From Plantactinospora sp. BC1 (GTDB taxonomy: Bacteria; Actinomycetota; Actinomycetes; Mycobacteriales; Micromonosporaceae), in contig NZ_CP028158.1 of assembly GCF_003030345.1 (NCBI RefSeq), positions 6,324,001-6,388,000 of the forward strand: a stretch of 64,000 bases of DNA, in the 5' to 3' direction. The translations under genes and the position numbers were made by a program. The notes below the pieces were generated by a model that was not told the DNA's origin, did no database searches, and was given only the letters and a program-made list of their open reading frames with translations. Shown here piece after piece: positions 56,071 through 63,307 of the stretch (the first letter of the stretch is position 1; each line of letters opens with the position of its first letter).

Positions 56071-56586
56071 ATGCGGCGAAAGACTCTGGTCCTGAGCGTC
56101 GGTGGCGTGCTGGCGGCAGCCGCCGTCGTCGGCACCGCGATCGGGGCCAGCGCGGCGGAGGGCGAGCGGCAGGGGTTCGGCGCCGTCGCCACCACCGCGC
56201 CCGCTGCGCCCACGCCCGGCGGCGGAGCGACGGGTACCCCCGGCGCCGGTTCGACCGCCACGCCCAGCGGTACGCCGTCGGGCGCACCGACCGGCTCTCC
56301 CGCACCGACCGGCTCGGCACCGGCCGGGTCCGTCGACTCGGCGCGGGCCGTCGAGATCGCCCTGGCCAGCGCCGGTGGCGGCCAGCTCGACGAGGTCGAG
56401 CGGGAGCAGGAACACGGGCGCGAGGTGTGGAGCGTCGAGGTCGTCAAGGACGGCTGGGAGATCGAGGTGGACGTGGACGCGGCCACCGGCGAGATCGTCA
56501 AGACCGACCGGGAGCAGGACGACGACAACGGCAAGGACGACGACCGCGACGACGAGGACGACGACAAGGACGACGACAACGACTGA
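56071..56586 (+). CDS. Exported PepSY-domain protein with acidic tail
   Basis: A 171-residue protein: signal peptide (cleavage near ASAAEG), a Thr/Pro/Gly/Ala spacer, one PepSY domain (SARAVEIALASAGGGQLDEV, then VWSVEVVKDGWEIEVDVDAATGEIVK), and a C-terminal run of Asp with a few Lys and Arg. PepSY domains bind or inhibit proteases or sense metals; the Asp tail could bind cations. TGGAGGAG precedes the ATG. It follows a two-component system and may be its target. It ends in a bidirectional terminator facing the DUF262 gene. Confidence 0.85.
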   Translation: MRRKTLVLSVGGVLAAAAVVGTAIGASAAEGERQGFGAVATTAPAAPTPGGGATGTPGAGSTATPSGTPSGAPTGSPAPTGSAPAGSVDSARAVEIALASAGGGQLDEVEREQEHGREVWSVEVVKDGWEIEVDVDAATGEIVKTDREQDDDNGKDDDRDDEDDDKDDDND

Positions 56587-56653: not shown

Positions 56654-58627
56654 TCAGTCGGTGCTGGTCACCGGGAGACGCATCGTCTCGCCCGTCCATG
56701 GCACAACTGGCACCACCGGACACTGCGACAGCGTTCTCGCGTCCGCGCGTTCTCGCGCCAGCACCTCGGTCCACTGCTCAGATGTACCGACGACCATGAA
56801 GGGGCCGAACTGTACTTCGATCGCGTCCTCCAGGACGCGCACCGGTATCGTCTCTCCAGCGATCTCCACGTCCCCGTCGATGCCGTCGGCGGCCTGTGCC
56901 AATGCTGCCTCCAGCTCTGGCAGTGCGACGGCGCCGCTCCAGGTGACACCCGGTCCGCGAGCGGACAGCAGCAATCGGCCCGCCTCCCACGCGCTCTGAT
57001 ACAGCGTCATTTCCAGCGCCAGCCCGTCAATCGGGTCTGGCTGGGGACTCTGCGTGTCGACCAACCACTTGGGTCGGACGGTGTCGAGGAGGTCGGTCAT
57101 CGCCGCCGCCAGCAGGTTCCGCCGCGCCGCCAGAAATTCCGGGTACGTCGAAGACTCCCGTAGCCGTACGTCGAGTGGGACGAGGTGGGCGCGGAGTTCA
57201 GCCTCGCCCAGGCTCGAGAAGTAGGCACTCGGCGACTTGTCACTGATCTTCTTGTTCGCCTTCGCCGAGATGAAGGCGAGGTTGGCAAGGTCGTTGATGT
57301 CTGCCTTCGAGTAGGCGTCCCGCAGGGTCGCCACGGGGTGGATGTGGTGGTACTCCAGCTTCTGCGCCCCGTCCAGTCCTGGGGCAATGGCGGTGCCGTG
57401 CCACCAGTCGTGCGCCCCGTTCCGCTGGCAGGCTAGAAAGCTGAGGAAGAAGTACGGGCTCTCCCGGCTCCGCCCGGCGAGTGCGTCCGGCGTCACGACC
57501 AAGCGGGAATGAACTCCGAGGTTGCGCAGCAGGCGGCGCACCGGATCAGCGTCTCGCACCGCGGGGATGTCCTGGCCGAGCACGGTGTCGGTGGATCCGC
57601 TGTAGCGGTTGCGCACGTAGGCGGCCAGCAGCCAGTAGAGCAGCCCGTTTGCGGTGTCCTGGTCCAGCGCCTCGTCGTCCCGCTCGCCGAGATAGATCAC
57701 GATCGGAATCAACGCGACAAGCGAGGGCAGCAGGCTCGACCGGCTGACGTTCAGGTTGTGTTGCAACAGCGGAACCAGGTGTTTTAGCCCTCGCTTGACC
57801 GTCTCCCAGCCGCGTTCCAACTGCTCGTCGCTCGCTTCGACGAGCCGGGCGTGTGAGTGCGCGGAGAGCCCTCGACCAAGCACGGCCCCGGCGAACGCGC
57901 GGGAGAGGAAGACCACGTCGAGTCCGGCGTAACCCTGCTTGACCCAGTGGTCAGCCTCCGCCTCCAGCTTGGCGAGGATTCCAGACCAGCGTGCGGAGAG
58001 GGTGGCGAGCGCCAGGTCGAGGGTCTTGAGTGCCCGTCCGCTGTTGACCCGAACGAAGATGTCCGCGACGTCCTCGTAGGAGAATCCGGTCAGGATCTCC
58101 AGGTGGTACCAGTACTGCTCGATGGCCTCGATCCGCTTGAGCCGCTGGCCGAGTTCCTTGGAATCGACCTTCACCCCGGCGGCGAGCAGTTCGCTGCGCA
58201 GTTCGAGCAGGTCGTCGTGGTTGAGGATGTCGTAGACCTTTACCCAGCGCGGGTCTTTCTTCGTCGCCGCGCTCTGGTTCTGGAAGGTCTCCTTCTCGAC
58301 GTTGAAGACGATCTGCGCCTCAGGGTGGTCGTTGAAGACGCGGTGCAACGAGGTCAACCGTTGCTGGCCGTCGAGCAGGTAGAGCGGTTCCGCAGCCGGT
58401 TGCAGGGTGGGCGCGTCCGCCGCCACGTCCCGAGTCCGTGGCTTGTCGGTGGTCTTCCAGAAGAGCAGGGCTCCGGAAGGGTAGCCGCGATAGAGCGACT
58501 CGACGAACTTCGCCACCTGAGTCGGTTTCCAGACATACCCGCGCTGGATCTCGGGCAGTTTGATCTCACCACTGGAGATCTGGGAGACGAGCACGACGAC
58601 CTGTTTGCTGGTCTTGTCAACGGGCAC
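56654..58627 (-). CDS. DUF262 (GmrSD-type) protein with C-terminal HNH-like motif
   Basis: A 657-residue protein. The DUF262 domain fills the N-terminal half: IQRGYVWKP, YRGYPSGALLFW and the DGQQR motif (residues 86-90, LLDGQQRLTSL), which in GmrS, BrxU and SspE binds and hydrolyses nucleotide. A central helical domain follows. Around residues 420-460 lies EYHHIHPVATL and NLAFISAKANKKISDKSP, an HNH/DUF1524-like nuclease pattern (His-His-x-His, Asn, Asn-Lys). Relatives restrict modified phage DNA. The gene begins 6 bp after the DUF499 ATPase, so the two form an operon. The last 150 residues match nothing I know. Base composition is lower in GC than in core genes nearby. Confidence 0.85.
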   Translation of the reverse strand: MPVDKTSKQVVVLVSQISSGEIKLPEIQRGYVWKPTQVAKFVESLYRGYPSGALLFWKTTDKPRTRDVAADAPTLQPAAEPLYLLDGQQRLTSLHRVFNDHPEAQIVFNVEKETFQNQSAATKKDPRWVKVYDILNHDDLLELRSELLAAGVKVDSKELGQRLKRIEAIEQYWYHLEILTGFSYEDVADIFVRVNSGRALKTLDLALATLSARWSGILAKLEAEADHWVKQGYAGLDVVFLSRAFAGAVLGRGLSAHSHARLVEASDEQLERGWETVKRGLKHLVPLLQHNLNVSRSSLLPSLVALIPIVIYLGERDDEALDQDTANGLLYWLLAAYVRNRYSGSTDTVLGQDIPAVRDADPVRRLLRNLGVHSRLVVTPDALAGRSRESPYFFLSFLACQRNGAHDWWHGTAIAPGLDGAQKLEYHHIHPVATLRDAYSKADINDLANLAFISAKANKKISDKSPSAYFSSLGEAELRAHLVPLDVRLRESSTYPEFLAARRNLLAAAMTDLLDTVRPKWLVDTQSPQPDPIDGLALEMTLYQSAWEAGRLLLSARGPGVTWSGAVALPELEAALAQAADGIDGDVEIAGETIPVRVLEDAIEVQFGPFMVVGTSEQWTEVLARERADARTLSQCPVVPVVPWTGETMRLPVTSTD

Positions 58628-58633
58628 CGTCGG

Positions 58634-61600
58634 TCACTCCTCTTCGAAGCGGGCCTGTTCGAACTTCAGCACTCGTGCGTTCTCGGAAATCGTCCGGATC
58701 TCGTCGTCGGCGTATCCGTCCGGCTTGCGGGCGGTGATCTCGATGGTCAGTTCCAACTCGCCAGCTCGGGCGAGATGGGCGAGCACCTCGGTCTGGAGCC
58801 GGTTGAGTTCCTTGGCATAGAACTCGGTACGGGTCCGGTAGACCCCAAAGAAGTGGCTCGTCGGCTTCGGCTCGGGTGTCTCGGGTTCGGGGCGTGGCAG
58901 GCTGATCAACCCGGGACCGACGACCGTGGCGCCGGGGTCGTCTTCGGTCTTCGGGGTGGCGGCCTTCCGGGCGATCTCCTCCAGCTCTCGTTGCGCCAGC
59001 GCCCGGTCCGGGCGGACCAGCAGGGTGCTGTCGGTGATCGCCGCGAAGCTCGCCGAGCCGCCCGGGATGACGAGCCCGGTGTAGCGGCCGGTCGATTCGT
59101 CGTATCCGGTGGCGAGCGCGAAGCCTTCCCGCTCCCAGGTAACCAGGTTGAGCACGTCCTCGACGCCGTGGTCCAGCACCTGGCGGTCTCGAAGCCGGGG
59201 CAGGTAGGGATAGCGGGTGTAGTAGCCCCACAGCTCGCCGAGCGGGATGTGCCCGAGGTCCCATACCGACTTGAGCGGCCCGTCGAGCCGCATCCGGATC
59301 AGCGTCGGGGCGTGCACGATGCCGAGGGTGCCGTCGTTGACCAGCCGGGTGCTGACGCGCTCGGCCAGGGCGCTGGAGCCGTCCGCCTTGACCGCCTTGA
59401 TCACATCGGGCTTGTCGGCGGCGGGTGGCTCCGGCAACAGGGCCCAGATGTACGCCGTGCCGATGCGCAGGTCGACGGCCTGATCCGCCTCCTTGATCCG
59501 GTTGCGTGCCTGGCGTTGCTGTGCCGGGCCGAGGCCCAGTTCCTCGTGCCGGTCGCCGATCTGCCGCCAGGCCAGGTACTCCCGGCTGGCCGCCATCAGG
59601 TCCTCCATCGCCCGGGTGTCGGCGGCGAGGCAGACCAGCATGTTGCGGTGCACCCGCTGGGCGGTACCGCGCTGGGCGAGCAGTTCGGTGACGAAGGTGA
59701 CCGCGCTCGACTTGTCCTCGCCGCGCCGGTGAGTGTAGCGGGGATGCAGCACGACCAGCCGGGCGTCGTCGACGTCGGGAACGTCACCGGTGGATTCCGG
59801 CGCCGGGTGTACGGCAGCGAACTTGCCCCGGACAGTCGTCTGGCTGGCACGCAACCGCTTGATGATCTCGGCCCAGACGTCCTCCGGGTGCAGCCGCTCG
59901 GCGTAGTCCCGGGCGGTACGGGTGACGGATGGCTGGGTGTCGTACCAGTAGCGGCCCGACTCGGAGTAGAGGTAGGTCGCCCGGTCGGCGAGGACGTGCA
60001 GCGCGGATCCGAAGTTCCCGACGGTGTCGCCGGGGACGGCCGAGCCGAGCCAGATCCGCTGCTGGTCGATGCCCTTGTGTGCGCTGCGCAGAGTGGCAGC
60101 CGACCCGAGGAACATCGTCCGGGCCAGCCGGCGGGTCATCCGACGTTGCCCGAAGGTGGTCCGCTCGATGTCGATCCGCACCGGGGTCGACTCGGGGCCG
60201 TCGATGTCGGCGTCGACGACCGGCTTCCAGGAGTCTTCGAGATATTGGGTCAGCTCGGTGAGCACCGGCAGGTCTTCGAGCTGCACGTTGCCGGGCATGA
60301 TCAGCGGGGCCGGGTCGTGCGCCTGCCAGGAGGCAAAGATGATTTTGCTCATCAGCCGGAGCACCCCACGGGTCCGCTGGAAGCGGTCGAGCGTCGACCA
60401 GTCGATGTAGAGCCGGTCGAACAGCTCCGGGTGCACAGGATAGGCGGCGCGGATCCGGGCCTCGTAGGCCGGTTCGGAACAGTTGGCCGGGAATTCCAGC
60501 CGGTGGTCGGCGTAGAATTGGGTGAATCGCCGGGCCACGGCGGCGATGTGGGTCCGGGCCTCGCCGTCCGGCTCCTCGAAGAGTCGGCGCCGGACGATCT
60601 CGAACGACTCCTGCTGGGACGCGGACCGCCACTGGCTGGCGACCCGGCCCACGACGTTCTGGAGACGGGCCAGCGCGTCCTGGCCGCGCGGACCGCCCAC
60701 CTCGATGGCCGCGCCGCCGTCGTCGGCCTCCCCCCGGTCCGAGGCCGGAATGGAGATCACCAGTAGCGCGCCGGGGGTGGCCTTGACCGCCTCGGTCAGG
60801 TATTGCGCGAAGGTGAACTGCGTGTCGAAGGTGCCGGCCGGCAGCGCCCCCGGTTCGTCGGCGAGCTGGCGGGCGTAGGCGACCCACTCGTCGATCAGGA
60901 TCAGGCACGGGGAGTAGGCCGCGATCAGCATGCTGAGCGCTTCGCCCGGATTGGTGCCGGTGCGGTCGGCCTCGGCGATCTGGGTGTATGCGGGCCGGCC
61001 GCCGAGCTGCCAGGCCAGTTCGCCCCAGATGGTTTGCACCATCGTGCCGTCCGGCTTCGGCATGCCGAGGCTCGGCGAGAGATGGTCGCCGACCAGGGCG
61101 ACCCGGCGGATGTCGGCACCGAGCGCCGCCAGGTCACTGCCGGCGAGCAGTTCCTGCATGTCCTGCGGGTATGCGGTCAGCGGCTTGCCGGAGAAGGCGT
61201 GCCAGAGTGCCAGCATCGAGTGGGTCTTGCCGCCACCGAAGTTCGTCTGGAGATTGATCACCGGGTCGGCGTTGGGGTCCCTGCCGATCCGCCGGACCGC
61301 CTTGCCGAGCAGGTCTCGCAGCCCTTCCGTCAGGTAGGTGCGGCGGAAGAACTCGACCGGGTCGCCGTACTCGTCCCGGGCCTCTCCCCGGGCGACCTGG
61401 GCGAGGTCGGCGGCGAACTCGCTGGCCGAGAAGTTGCCGGTGGCCACGTCGGGATGAGGCTTGATCACCTCACGCCACGGCTTGAGCCCGCTACCGGCGA
61501 CGCCCGGCTCGACGGTGGCCTTAGCCGCCCGACCGGCGTGCTTGGCGAAAAACGCCTGCTGGTGGTCGTAAAGCATCCGGGTCAACGCCTCGGCCTGCGG

Positions 61601-61966
61601 CACCGCGCCGACCGCCTGGCAGAGCCGGACCATGCTGTCCAGCGCCCGGCTGGTGTCGTTGTCGGTAAACGCCCGCCCGTGCGCCCACGAGTTCCGGACG
61701 TCCCGCAGTTCCTGGGCGAAGCCGCGCTGGACGTGGGAGAGCTTGTCCCGGAACGGCCGCTCCTCGGTGATGACCCGCAGCCAGGTCTGCGGATCCTCCC
61801 GGTTGTAGGCGTGACTGGCGCGGTTGCCCCTCCGTTCGGCGAGTACCTCGGTCCAGTCCCGGCCCTGGTCGACCGTGGGCGCCATGATCCGTTCGACGAA
61901 CGGCGCGACCCCCTCGGTCAGCAGTTCCAGCCCACGACCCACCCGGTCCCGGTTGCTCTGCGCCAT
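58634..61966 (-). CDS. Swt1-type HEPN plus DUF499 P-loop ATPase
   Basis: A 1110-residue protein. Residues about 1-110 are a Swt1-family HEPN domain with the catalytic-type Arg-x4-His (RDVRNSWAHG, Arg91 and His96), which in active HEPN proteins cuts RNA. The DUF499 ATPase follows: Walker A NFGGGKTH (about 239-247), Walker B CLILIDEWVAYAR (about 350), and long helical C-terminal regions. DUF499 proteins recur in anti-phage gene sets with methyltransferases and helicases. Here the only partner is the DUF262 protein 6 bp downstream. GGAGGGGCG precedes the ATG at 61966. Divergent from a DddA-like deaminase gene. An abortive-infection or restriction role is inferred. Confidence 0.85.
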   Translation of the reverse strand: MAQSNRDRVGRGLELLTEGVAPFVERIMAPTVDQGRDWTEVLAERRGNRASHAYNREDPQTWLRVITEERPFRDKLSHVQRGFAQELRDVRNSWAHGRAFTDNDTSRALDSMVRLCQAVGAVPQAEALTRMLYDHQQAFFAKHAGRAAKATVEPGVAGSGLKPWREVIKPHPDVATGNFSASEFAADLAQVARGEARDEYGDPVEFFRRTYLTEGLRDLLGKAVRRIGRDPNADPVINLQTNFGGGKTHSMLALWHAFSGKPLTAYPQDMQELLAGSDLAALGADIRRVALVGDHLSPSLGMPKPDGTMVQTIWGELAWQLGGRPAYTQIAEADRTGTNPGEALSMLIAAYSPCLILIDEWVAYARQLADEPGALPAGTFDTQFTFAQYLTEAVKATPGALLVISIPASDRGEADDGGAAIEVGGPRGQDALARLQNVVGRVASQWRSASQQESFEIVRRRLFEEPDGEARTHIAAVARRFTQFYADHRLEFPANCSEPAYEARIRAAYPVHPELFDRLYIDWSTLDRFQRTRGVLRLMSKIIFASWQAHDPAPLIMPGNVQLEDLPVLTELTQYLEDSWKPVVDADIDGPESTPVRIDIERTTFGQRRMTRRLARTMFLGSAATLRSAHKGIDQQRIWLGSAVPGDTVGNFGSALHVLADRATYLYSESGRYWYDTQPSVTRTARDYAERLHPEDVWAEIIKRLRASQTTVRGKFAAVHPAPESTGDVPDVDDARLVVLHPRYTHRRGEDKSSAVTFVTELLAQRGTAQRVHRNMLVCLAADTRAMEDLMAASREYLAWRQIGDRHEELGLGPAQQRQARNRIKEADQAVDLRIGTAYIWALLPEPPAADKPDVIKAVKADGSSALAERVSTRLVNDGTLGIVHAPTLIRMRLDGPLKSVWDLGHIPLGELWGYYTRYPYLPRLRDRQVLDHGVEDVLNLVTWEREGFALATGYDESTGRYTGLVIPGGSASFAAITDSTLLVRPDRALAQRELEEIARKAATPKTEDDPGATVVGPGLISLPRPEPETPEPKPTSHFFGVYRTRTEFYAKELNRLQTEVLAHLARAGELELTIEITARKPDGYADDEIRTISENARVLKFEQARFEEE

Positions 61967-62131: not shown

Positions 62132-62156
62132 CTGGTAGCCGAACGGAGGGTTGTTT

Positions 62157-62918
62157 GTGAGCCTGGCGCAGGTCGCTGCCTCGCTCTCGGCGGTGCTCCT
62201 CGACATCGCCGGGCTTCGGGCACAGATCGCGGCCAACGCCAAGGCGGTAGCCGGAAGAACCGAAACCCTCGTCGCCCTGACCCAGGGCAGCCGGCATCCC
62301 TCGGTCGAACAGGCTATCCGGAACGGCGCCGCGACGCTGGAGCGGCTACGGGAGGCCGATCAACAGGCTGCCGGTGCGGTGGCGGCGATCGTGGAGTACG
62401 GGCGGGCCATCGGCATCGATCTGCCGGCGCCCGCCCAACCAGGTCCGAGTTCACCGGCCCCCCGGCCGCGACGCTCGGATCCGGAAGCGTCAGTCGAATC
62501 CACGCCCTCCGACGCGATTGCCGCGATCGGGCGAAGCCTTCCGGTTCGGGCCAGCGCACGGGACCGCACCACCGGGATGTTCGCCGGTGAACTCATTGTC
62601 AGCGGCGAAGATCCTGCGACGGTAGCCGACCTTCGCCCGCTCCCTGGTGGCGGATGGCCGGACTCCGTCATCAGCCACGTGGAGAGCCATGTCGCGGCAC
62701 GGATGCGTCGGCAGAACCTGTCAGAGGGCGAAGTCGTACTCAACAACATCACCTGCGGTAACCGCGGATTCGACGCCGACTGGCCCGCGACCTGCGAACG
62801 CTATATTCGCGACCTGTTGCCGGCCGGATCCCGGCTGACCGTCTGGGCGACGCCGGACGGCGGCGCGACCTGGTGGACGCGGACCTACCGAGGTACGGGT
62901 GAGAGGATAAAGAAGTGA
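62157..62918 (+). CDS. DddA-like (SCP1.201 family) nucleic-acid deaminase, free-standing
   Basis: A 253-residue protein. Residues 1-85 form a helical coiled-coil-like N-terminus without signal peptide, 90-120 a linker, and about 125-240 a cytidine-deaminase-fold toxin domain. Zinc and catalytic residues are His174 and Glu176 (SHVESHVAARMR), Cys200 (NNITCGN) and Cys213 (ATCERY); the two Cys are 12 residues apart, wider than in DddA. The LLPAGSRLTVW strand is family-typical. DddA itself deaminates cytosine in double-stranded DNA; other members act on single strands. GGAGGG sits 6 nt before GTG 62157. The Imm1-type gene overlaps by GTGA, so the toxin is always made with its antidote. No type VI or VII trafficking domain is visible. 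Confidence 0.82.
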   Translation: MSLAQVAASLSAVLLDIAGLRAQIAANAKAVAGRTETLVALTQGSRHPSVEQAIRNGAATLERLREADQQAAGAVAAIVEYGRAIGIDLPAPAQPGPSSPAPRPRRSDPEASVESTPSDAIAAIGRSLPVRASARDRTTGMFAGELIVSGEDPATVADLRPLPGGGWPDSVISHVESHVAARMRRQNLSEGEVVLNNITCGNRGFDADWPATCERYIRDLLPAGSRLTVWATPDGGATWWTRTYRGTGERIKK

Positions 62919-63307
62919 CATACCGGGTCAGTTACGACATGGACGAAGAGACTCTGCCCGATGCCGAGGCTGTTTCCGCCTTCTTCGACAAACGGGCACA
63001 CCGGATCGCCCCGCACGGCCGCCGAGCGAACACGTACTGGATCGGCCCGGCCGGCGGCGAGGACGTTCTGCGGGTGGACCTGGACTACGACGCGGGCCGC
63101 GCGGCACTGCGCTGGCTCCCCGACAACAGCCACGGCGTGGAACTGGGGCCGGGTGCCCCCATCGTGGTCCTCGAATCCTCCGATCATCCGCCGGTCACCA
63201 TCCCCGGCAACCTGGCTCGGGTCTCGATCGACCTGGCCCGTGCGGCCGTCGCCGCCTACATCCGGACCGGGCAACGTCCATCCACCGTCGCGTGGTCCGC
63301 CGGCTGA
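62915..63307 (+). CDS. Imm1-family immunity protein
   Basis: A 130-residue acidic protein with the Imm1 pattern: EAVSAFFDKR helix, DVLRVDLDYDAGRAALRWL strands, a central VTIPGNLARVSI and the conserved C-terminal AAVAAYIRTGQRPSTVAW. Imm1 proteins neutralise deaminase-type toxins, and this one begins inside the stop codon of the deaminase gene (GTGA), the expected toxin-immunity arrangement. It is followed by a 7-bp stem terminator. The match is by pattern and context; direct binding is inferred. Confidence 0.85.
   Translation: MTYRVSYDMDEETLPDAEAVSAFFDKRAHRIAPHGRRANTYWIGPAGGEDVLRVDLDYDAGRAALRWLPDNSHGVELGPGAPIVVLESSDHPPVTIPGNLARVSIDLARAAVAAYIRTGQRPSTVAWSAG

Follow-up and report, generated by a model that had tools for sequence, protein, structure and literature searches.

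The window analysed here, a 64,000-nucleotide stretch of the Plantactinospora sp. BC1 genome (positions 6324001-6388000 of a single contig of 8,333,965 bases), carries near its right end two minus-strand genes encoding a HEPN-DUF499 ATPase and, downstream of it after a gap of 6 bp, a DUF262 protein of the GmrSD type. A sequence-only reading of the window had taken this pair for a possible minimal, two-gene defence system. The Hma system, however, is defined as a helicase (HmaA), a methylase (HmaB), and an ATPase (HmaC) (PMC8565338), and all three genes were found in the genome of this strain on the same strand and in the usual A-B-C order. The pair is highly likely to be the downstream half of a single Hma locus, belonging to the Type-1 DUF499-centred systems related to bacteriophage exclusion (BREX), with an attached GmrSD/BrxU-like enzyme.

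The upstream gene of the pair (58634..61966, minus strand), the reading frame of which is open and intact, encodes a HEPN(Swt1)-DUF499 AAA+ ATPase of 1110 amino acids. Pfam places HEPN_Swt1 at residues 11-120 (61607..61936, minus strand; 97.1 bits, E = 1e-27, with a cut-off of 27.5) and DUF499 at residues 306-806 (75.9 bits, cut-off 23), as the sequence-only reading had recognized. The HmaC model of PADLOC scores 867.3 bits, with residues 161-1109 aligned on model positions 3-941 of 941, far above the 119.7 bits obtained with the generic DUF499 model, and no BrxC model occurs among the PADLOC matches of this ATPase at E up to 1; judged from these profiles, the protein is HmaC and not a generic DUF499 protein. 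Of the 27 HmaC proteins aligned, the present one included, 25 keep the Arg-x4-His motif of the HEPN domain (R91 and H96); in the other two, L010 (truncated where its contig ends) and L077 (interrupted by an internal stop), the motif falls in an alignment gap. The Walker A region, NFGGGKTHS (residues 242-250; 61217..61243, minus strand), retains G-G-G-K in all 27 proteins, as does Walker B its D-E, while T248 is replaced by Ser in five.

The downstream gene (56654..58627, minus strand), starting with GTG and likewise open and intact, encodes a BrxU/HEC-05-like, GmrSD-family DUF262 protein of 657 amino acids (HEC, Hma-embedded candidate). GmrSD_N is matched by residues 13-210 (Pfam, 87 bits, cut-off 33.2), and the DGQQR motif at residues 86-90 (58358..58372, minus strand), also noted in the sequence-only reading, is invariant in the 16 aligned DUF262 proteins, which include the window protein. 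The best PADLOC model is HEC-05 (138.5 bits, residues 117-515 on profile positions 177-594 of 600), as compared with 15.1 bits for SspE. BrxU itself is matched by the sequence (7p9k; phmmer, 5.7e-13), more strongly when used as a profile (3.6e-23), and by the structural model (7p9m; Foldseek E = 1.8e-8, 596 columns). The strongest part of this likeness is the DUF262 half. By eye, an HNH-like motif, HHIHP, is seen at residues 427-431 (57335..57349, minus strand), resembling DHIYP of BrxU; H427, H428, P431, and N449 of this stretch are conserved in 16/16 proteins, and N458 is Asn in 14/16. The C-terminal half is a weakly supported candidate for an HNH-type nuclease, an assignment resting on this motif, which the sequence-only reading had noted, and on the HEC-05 profile. 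The protein further contains a C-terminal α/β extension (approximately residues 530-630), modelled mostly with a predicted local distance difference test score (pLDDT) of 80-90, for which neither a Pfam domain nor a convincing match in the PDB by Foldseek was obtained.

HmaB lies 2.9 kb and HmaA 6.7 kb past the right edge of the window. HmaB (6390912-6393740, minus strand as HmaC; 942 amino acids, 1045.5 bits) contains the DUF1156 domain (109.9 bits), and HmaA (6394748-6398197, also minus strand as HmaC; 1149 amino acids, 1320.1 bits) combines SNF2 and Helicase_C with a C-terminal NOV_C domain at residues 1029-1110. The locus accordingly runs from the HmaA helicase and the HmaB methylase, through 4.9 kb of other genes, to HmaC and the DUF262 gene; the four genes, with their conserved motifs, share one order, one strand, and one block at a single chromosomal site. 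The claim that no DUF1156-type methyltransferase or helicase is present here arose because both genes fall outside the window edge. The pair looked isolated owing to that edge and to the 4.9 kb of mostly opposite-strand genes, and its near flanks are indeed closed as had been described, by a convergent PepSY gene on the left and a divergent gene on the right. Since this distance and the opposite-strand genes separate HmaB from HmaC, the HmaC-DUF262 pair presumably has its own promoter, which may lie in the space of roughly 185 bp between HmaC and the divergent toxin-like gene.

The conservation of this arrangement was examined in 54 related HmaC loci, 26 of them found in the family and among GTDB contigs and 28 in 394 genomes drawn evenly from the class, within fetched stretches of mostly 20 kb. 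HmaB (threshold 1e-30 for the first set and 1e-20 for the second) is present in 49 of them (24/26 and 25/28) and HmaA in 45 (21/26 and 24/28), two of the latter being weak counts (L098, 157 bits and placed after HmaC; L101, 257 bits with a short frame) and two, L070 and L105, having HmaA on the opposite strand. Left out of these counts are L011, a duplicate lying on the same contig as L069 and identical over the overlap, as well as L090, L091, and the match in G301 (not fetched), the DUF499 proteins of which are just 31-32% identical. L006/L010 and L067/L068 were counted apart, although the members of each pair have a few sequence stretches in common, and L102 and L105 are two loci in one genome (G354). 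Four of the five loci without HmaB (L002, L010, L111, and L123) are cut by contig ends; the fifth, L122 (G359:C200:5500-25400), is not, and shows a solitary HmaC with no HmaA, HmaB, or DUF262 gene across the 20 kb fetched, which include 13.5 kb upstream. These five together with L007, L009 (contig end), L075, and L121 make up the nine loci lacking HmaA.

A DUF262 gene adjoins HmaC in 12 of the 54 loci (9/26 and 3/28), preceding it in nine and following it in three, and was not found in the fetched stretch of the remaining 42. HmaB is also present in eleven of these twelve; the remaining one, L002, is truncated by its contig end. The closest relatives (G107, G065, and G048; HmaC 57-58% and DUF262 59-60% identical to those of the window) have a contiguous HmaA-HmaB-HmaC-DUF262 series on one strand, HmaA of G065 being cut by the contig end, and carry after DUF262 a HEC-07/NsnC-like gene; the latter was not found in the genome of the present strain, an empty answer to which no weight can be given. 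No locus reaching far enough upstream to judge has HmaC and DUF262 as its only genes. The co-occurrence of exactly these two genes, proposed as a check on the minimal system, is therefore not seen in such loci. The outcome approaches the condition that the sequence-only reading had named as refuting it, the HmaB-less loci being contig-cut apart from L122, in the fetched stretch of which DUF262 is missing as well.

The DUF262 subfamily of the window is not confined to Hma. Among 354 genomes of the family, 15 relatives share 50-60% identity with it, three of which are the Hma loci of G107, G065, and G048; the other twelve genomes give no HmaC match at E = 1e-30. In seven of these twelve non-Hma loci (L080-L086), the gene lies divergently beside BrxC, PglZ, and BrxHI, next to a PDC-S02 gene, the gene names being derived from PADLOC for L081 and from BLASTP to L081 for the other six. 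In this actinobacterial case, a single BrxU-like DUF262 subfamily accompanies Hma in some genomes and BREX in others, in keeping with the view in the literature that enzymes of this type supplement modification-based defences by acting on phages whose DNA is modified.

With respect to systems already described, the locus resembles Hma in having all three core genes on the same strand and in the same order, in the fusion of HEPN to the DUF499 ATPase, in the DUF1156 methylase, and in the SNF2 helicase with its C-terminal NOV_C. It differs from the usual Hma in that the genes are not adjacent in one operon (4.9 kb between HmaB and HmaC; 1.0 kb between HmaA and HmaB, where an RNase H-fold gene lies), adjacency being a usual rather than a strict criterion. 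The tie of HEPN-DUF499 proteins to restriction-like operons dates from 2013 (PMC3710099). In a later account, Hma is treated under the Type-1 DUF499-centred BREX-related systems, HEPN-fused ATPases are reported from 1370 taxa, and GmrSD-type enzymes appear among the BREX backup effectors (PMC12839542). A 2024 paper identifies HEC-05 as BrxU and describes GmrSD-like genes embedded in Hma clusters and functioning independently (PMC11411939), and antiviral activity is reported for some Hma-embedded candidates (PMC12988326). BrxU, which has the DHIYP motif, is described as belonging to the Type IV enzymes and as complementing BREX through cleavage of modified DNA (PMC8565348). The window protein is like BrxU/HEC-05 in its DUF262 domain with DGQQR, its putative HNH-like motif, and its place beside Hma or BREX genes, but has HHIHP where BrxU has DHIYP and gives no Pfam GmrSD_C match. 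Although its subfamily also adjoins BREX genes in the seven genomes mentioned above, the ATPase of the window matches HmaC and no BrxC model. The locus is thus of a kind already described, and the defence role suggested in the sequence-only reading is supported by this family membership and by the published work on relatives; as judged from sequence, the locus is very probably anti-phage.

By analogy to the scheme proposed for these systems, in which the methylase marks self DNA, the ATPase scans, the helicase-nuclease destroys, and HEPN brings about suicide as a last resort (PMC12839542), HmaB would mark the host DNA; it is described as an m5C (5-methylcytosine) enzyme in one paper and as an N6-adenine enzyme in another. 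The AAA+ ATPase HmaC would then assemble on unmarked invading DNA, on which HmaA would translocate and cut, and the HEPN domain of HmaC may serve as a fallback RNase halting the cell. The DUF262 enzyme would act independently, hydrolyzing nucleoside triphosphates through DGQQR and cutting phage DNA that contains modified bases, so that the locus might cover both unmodified and modified phages.

The site was compared in five sister genomes; a sixth, G336, in which the left-flank gene has no match at 1e-60, was left out. In G335 and G332, no more than approximately 0.1-0.2 kb separates the left flank (the PepSY gene, up to approximately position 56,580 in the numbering of the window) from the right flank (approximately 74,280 onwards). 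Because these two genomes join the flanks without it, the block of approximately 17.7 kb from DUF262 to HmaA is, by this comparison, a discrete segment. In G333 the block and a further 1.3 kb are absent, and in G337 the site holds 5.8 kb of mostly other DNA. Fragments persist in two genomes: G334 retains residues 1-144 of HmaA (75-92% identical), Imm1 (91.5%), and neighbours, and in G337 there remain the final 23 residues of DUF262 (83%) and a short stretch resembling HmaC (46%), which may derive from a different Hma copy, since this identity is low for the genus. An HmaC 39% identical also occurs elsewhere in the genome of G335. The block may predate the divergence of some of the sister species and have been lost piecemeal, or may have been gained more than once. 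No tRNA genes that could mark an attachment site were found in the stretches L062, L063, L092, and L097.

Several observations weigh against the assignment to an Hma locus with a BrxU-like enzyme. The locus is not a continuous operon: 4.9 kb that includes opposite-strand genes separates the end of HmaB from HmaC. For the DUF262 protein, the structural model is weak, with a mean pLDDT of 72.2 and residues 1-36 and 47-96 below 50, and its whole-chain template modelling score against BrxU is 0.29-0.33. Pfam GmrSD_C is unmatched at E up to 1, the HMMER alignment does not place HHIHP on DHIYP of BrxU, and when profiles were compared with those of four Hma-embedded DUF262 proteins, one of them (the first) bearing GmrSD_C, the alignment covered just the DUF262 half, to approximately residue 228. 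Gaps of one to several kilobases between the core genes are, on the other hand, also found in Hma loci of relatives (e.g., L110, L120, and L004-L006). These gaps bear as well on the possibility that the island is decaying, broken by insertions, and inactive in this strain. The opposite-strand genes inside the locus and the restriction of two sister species to fragments would agree with such decay, but the four genes all have full-length open frames and the motifs of HmaC and DUF262 that were checked are intact, which makes an inactive island improbable. Somewhat less improbable, but still unlikely, is that the DUF262 protein is not an independent Type IV enzyme but an integral effector of Hma, sensing methylation by HmaB or the state of HmaC as SspE senses phosphorothioates. 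SspE, a DUF262-DUF1524 protein, is indeed described as linked to a modification system, its C-terminal domain is the third Foldseek match of the window protein (E = 0.047), and the gene is close to HmaC. The PADLOC scores strongly favour HEC-05 over SspE, however, and the window subfamily is, by profile comparison, distant from the GmrSD_C-bearing one of L012. With its varying place on either side of HmaC, its frequent non-finding, and these distant subfamilies, the DUF262 gene fits an interchangeable add-on.

The original proposal, in which HmaC and DUF262 form a stand-alone abortive system with DUF262 as the sensor and the HEPN-ATPase as the killer, draws on the adjacency of the two genes, their closed near flanks, and the distance to HmaB. 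We consider it very improbable, since HmaA and HmaB stand in the same block of the same genome, HmaB accompanies nearly every related HmaC-DUF262 pair, most HmaC loci show no DUF262 gene in the fetched stretch, and the subfamily recurs in twelve family genomes without an HmaC match. A misleading pointer to a new minimal system is thereby set aside, and the small points of interest become that one BrxU-like subfamily serves both Hma and BREX loci and that the Hma locus has a nested deaminase/immunity pair.

The latter pair sits on the strand opposite to HmaB and HmaC and consists of a gene with a DddA-like double-stranded DNA deaminase toxin domain (62151..62918, plus strand, start codon uncertain; PF14428, 65.2 bits, cut-off 25) and, beside it, a gene for an Imm1 immunity protein (62915..63307, plus strand; PF14430, 28.8 bits, cut-off 22.4). 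In the sister genome G334, to which the Imm1 identity given above refers, the toxin-like protein is represented only by its C-terminal part, at 62% identity. It is conceivable, but hardly to be expected, that HmaC and the BrxU-like enzyme, separated from HmaAB by the intervening genes and expressed from a promoter of their own, form an arm under separate control, the HEPN-ATPase firing once modified phage DNA is detected by the Type IV enzyme, beside an HmaAB arm directed against unmodified DNA and with the deaminase/Imm1 pair as a third layer. The plus strand between HmaB and HmaC also holds a gene with helix-turn-helix matches just under the cut-offs and a phosphotransferase-family (APH) gene, and a small minus-strand gene there shows a weak DivIVA match under its cut-off; the RNase H-fold gene between HmaA and HmaB (L062:13931-14743, plus strand) matches PF00075 at 42.7 bits.

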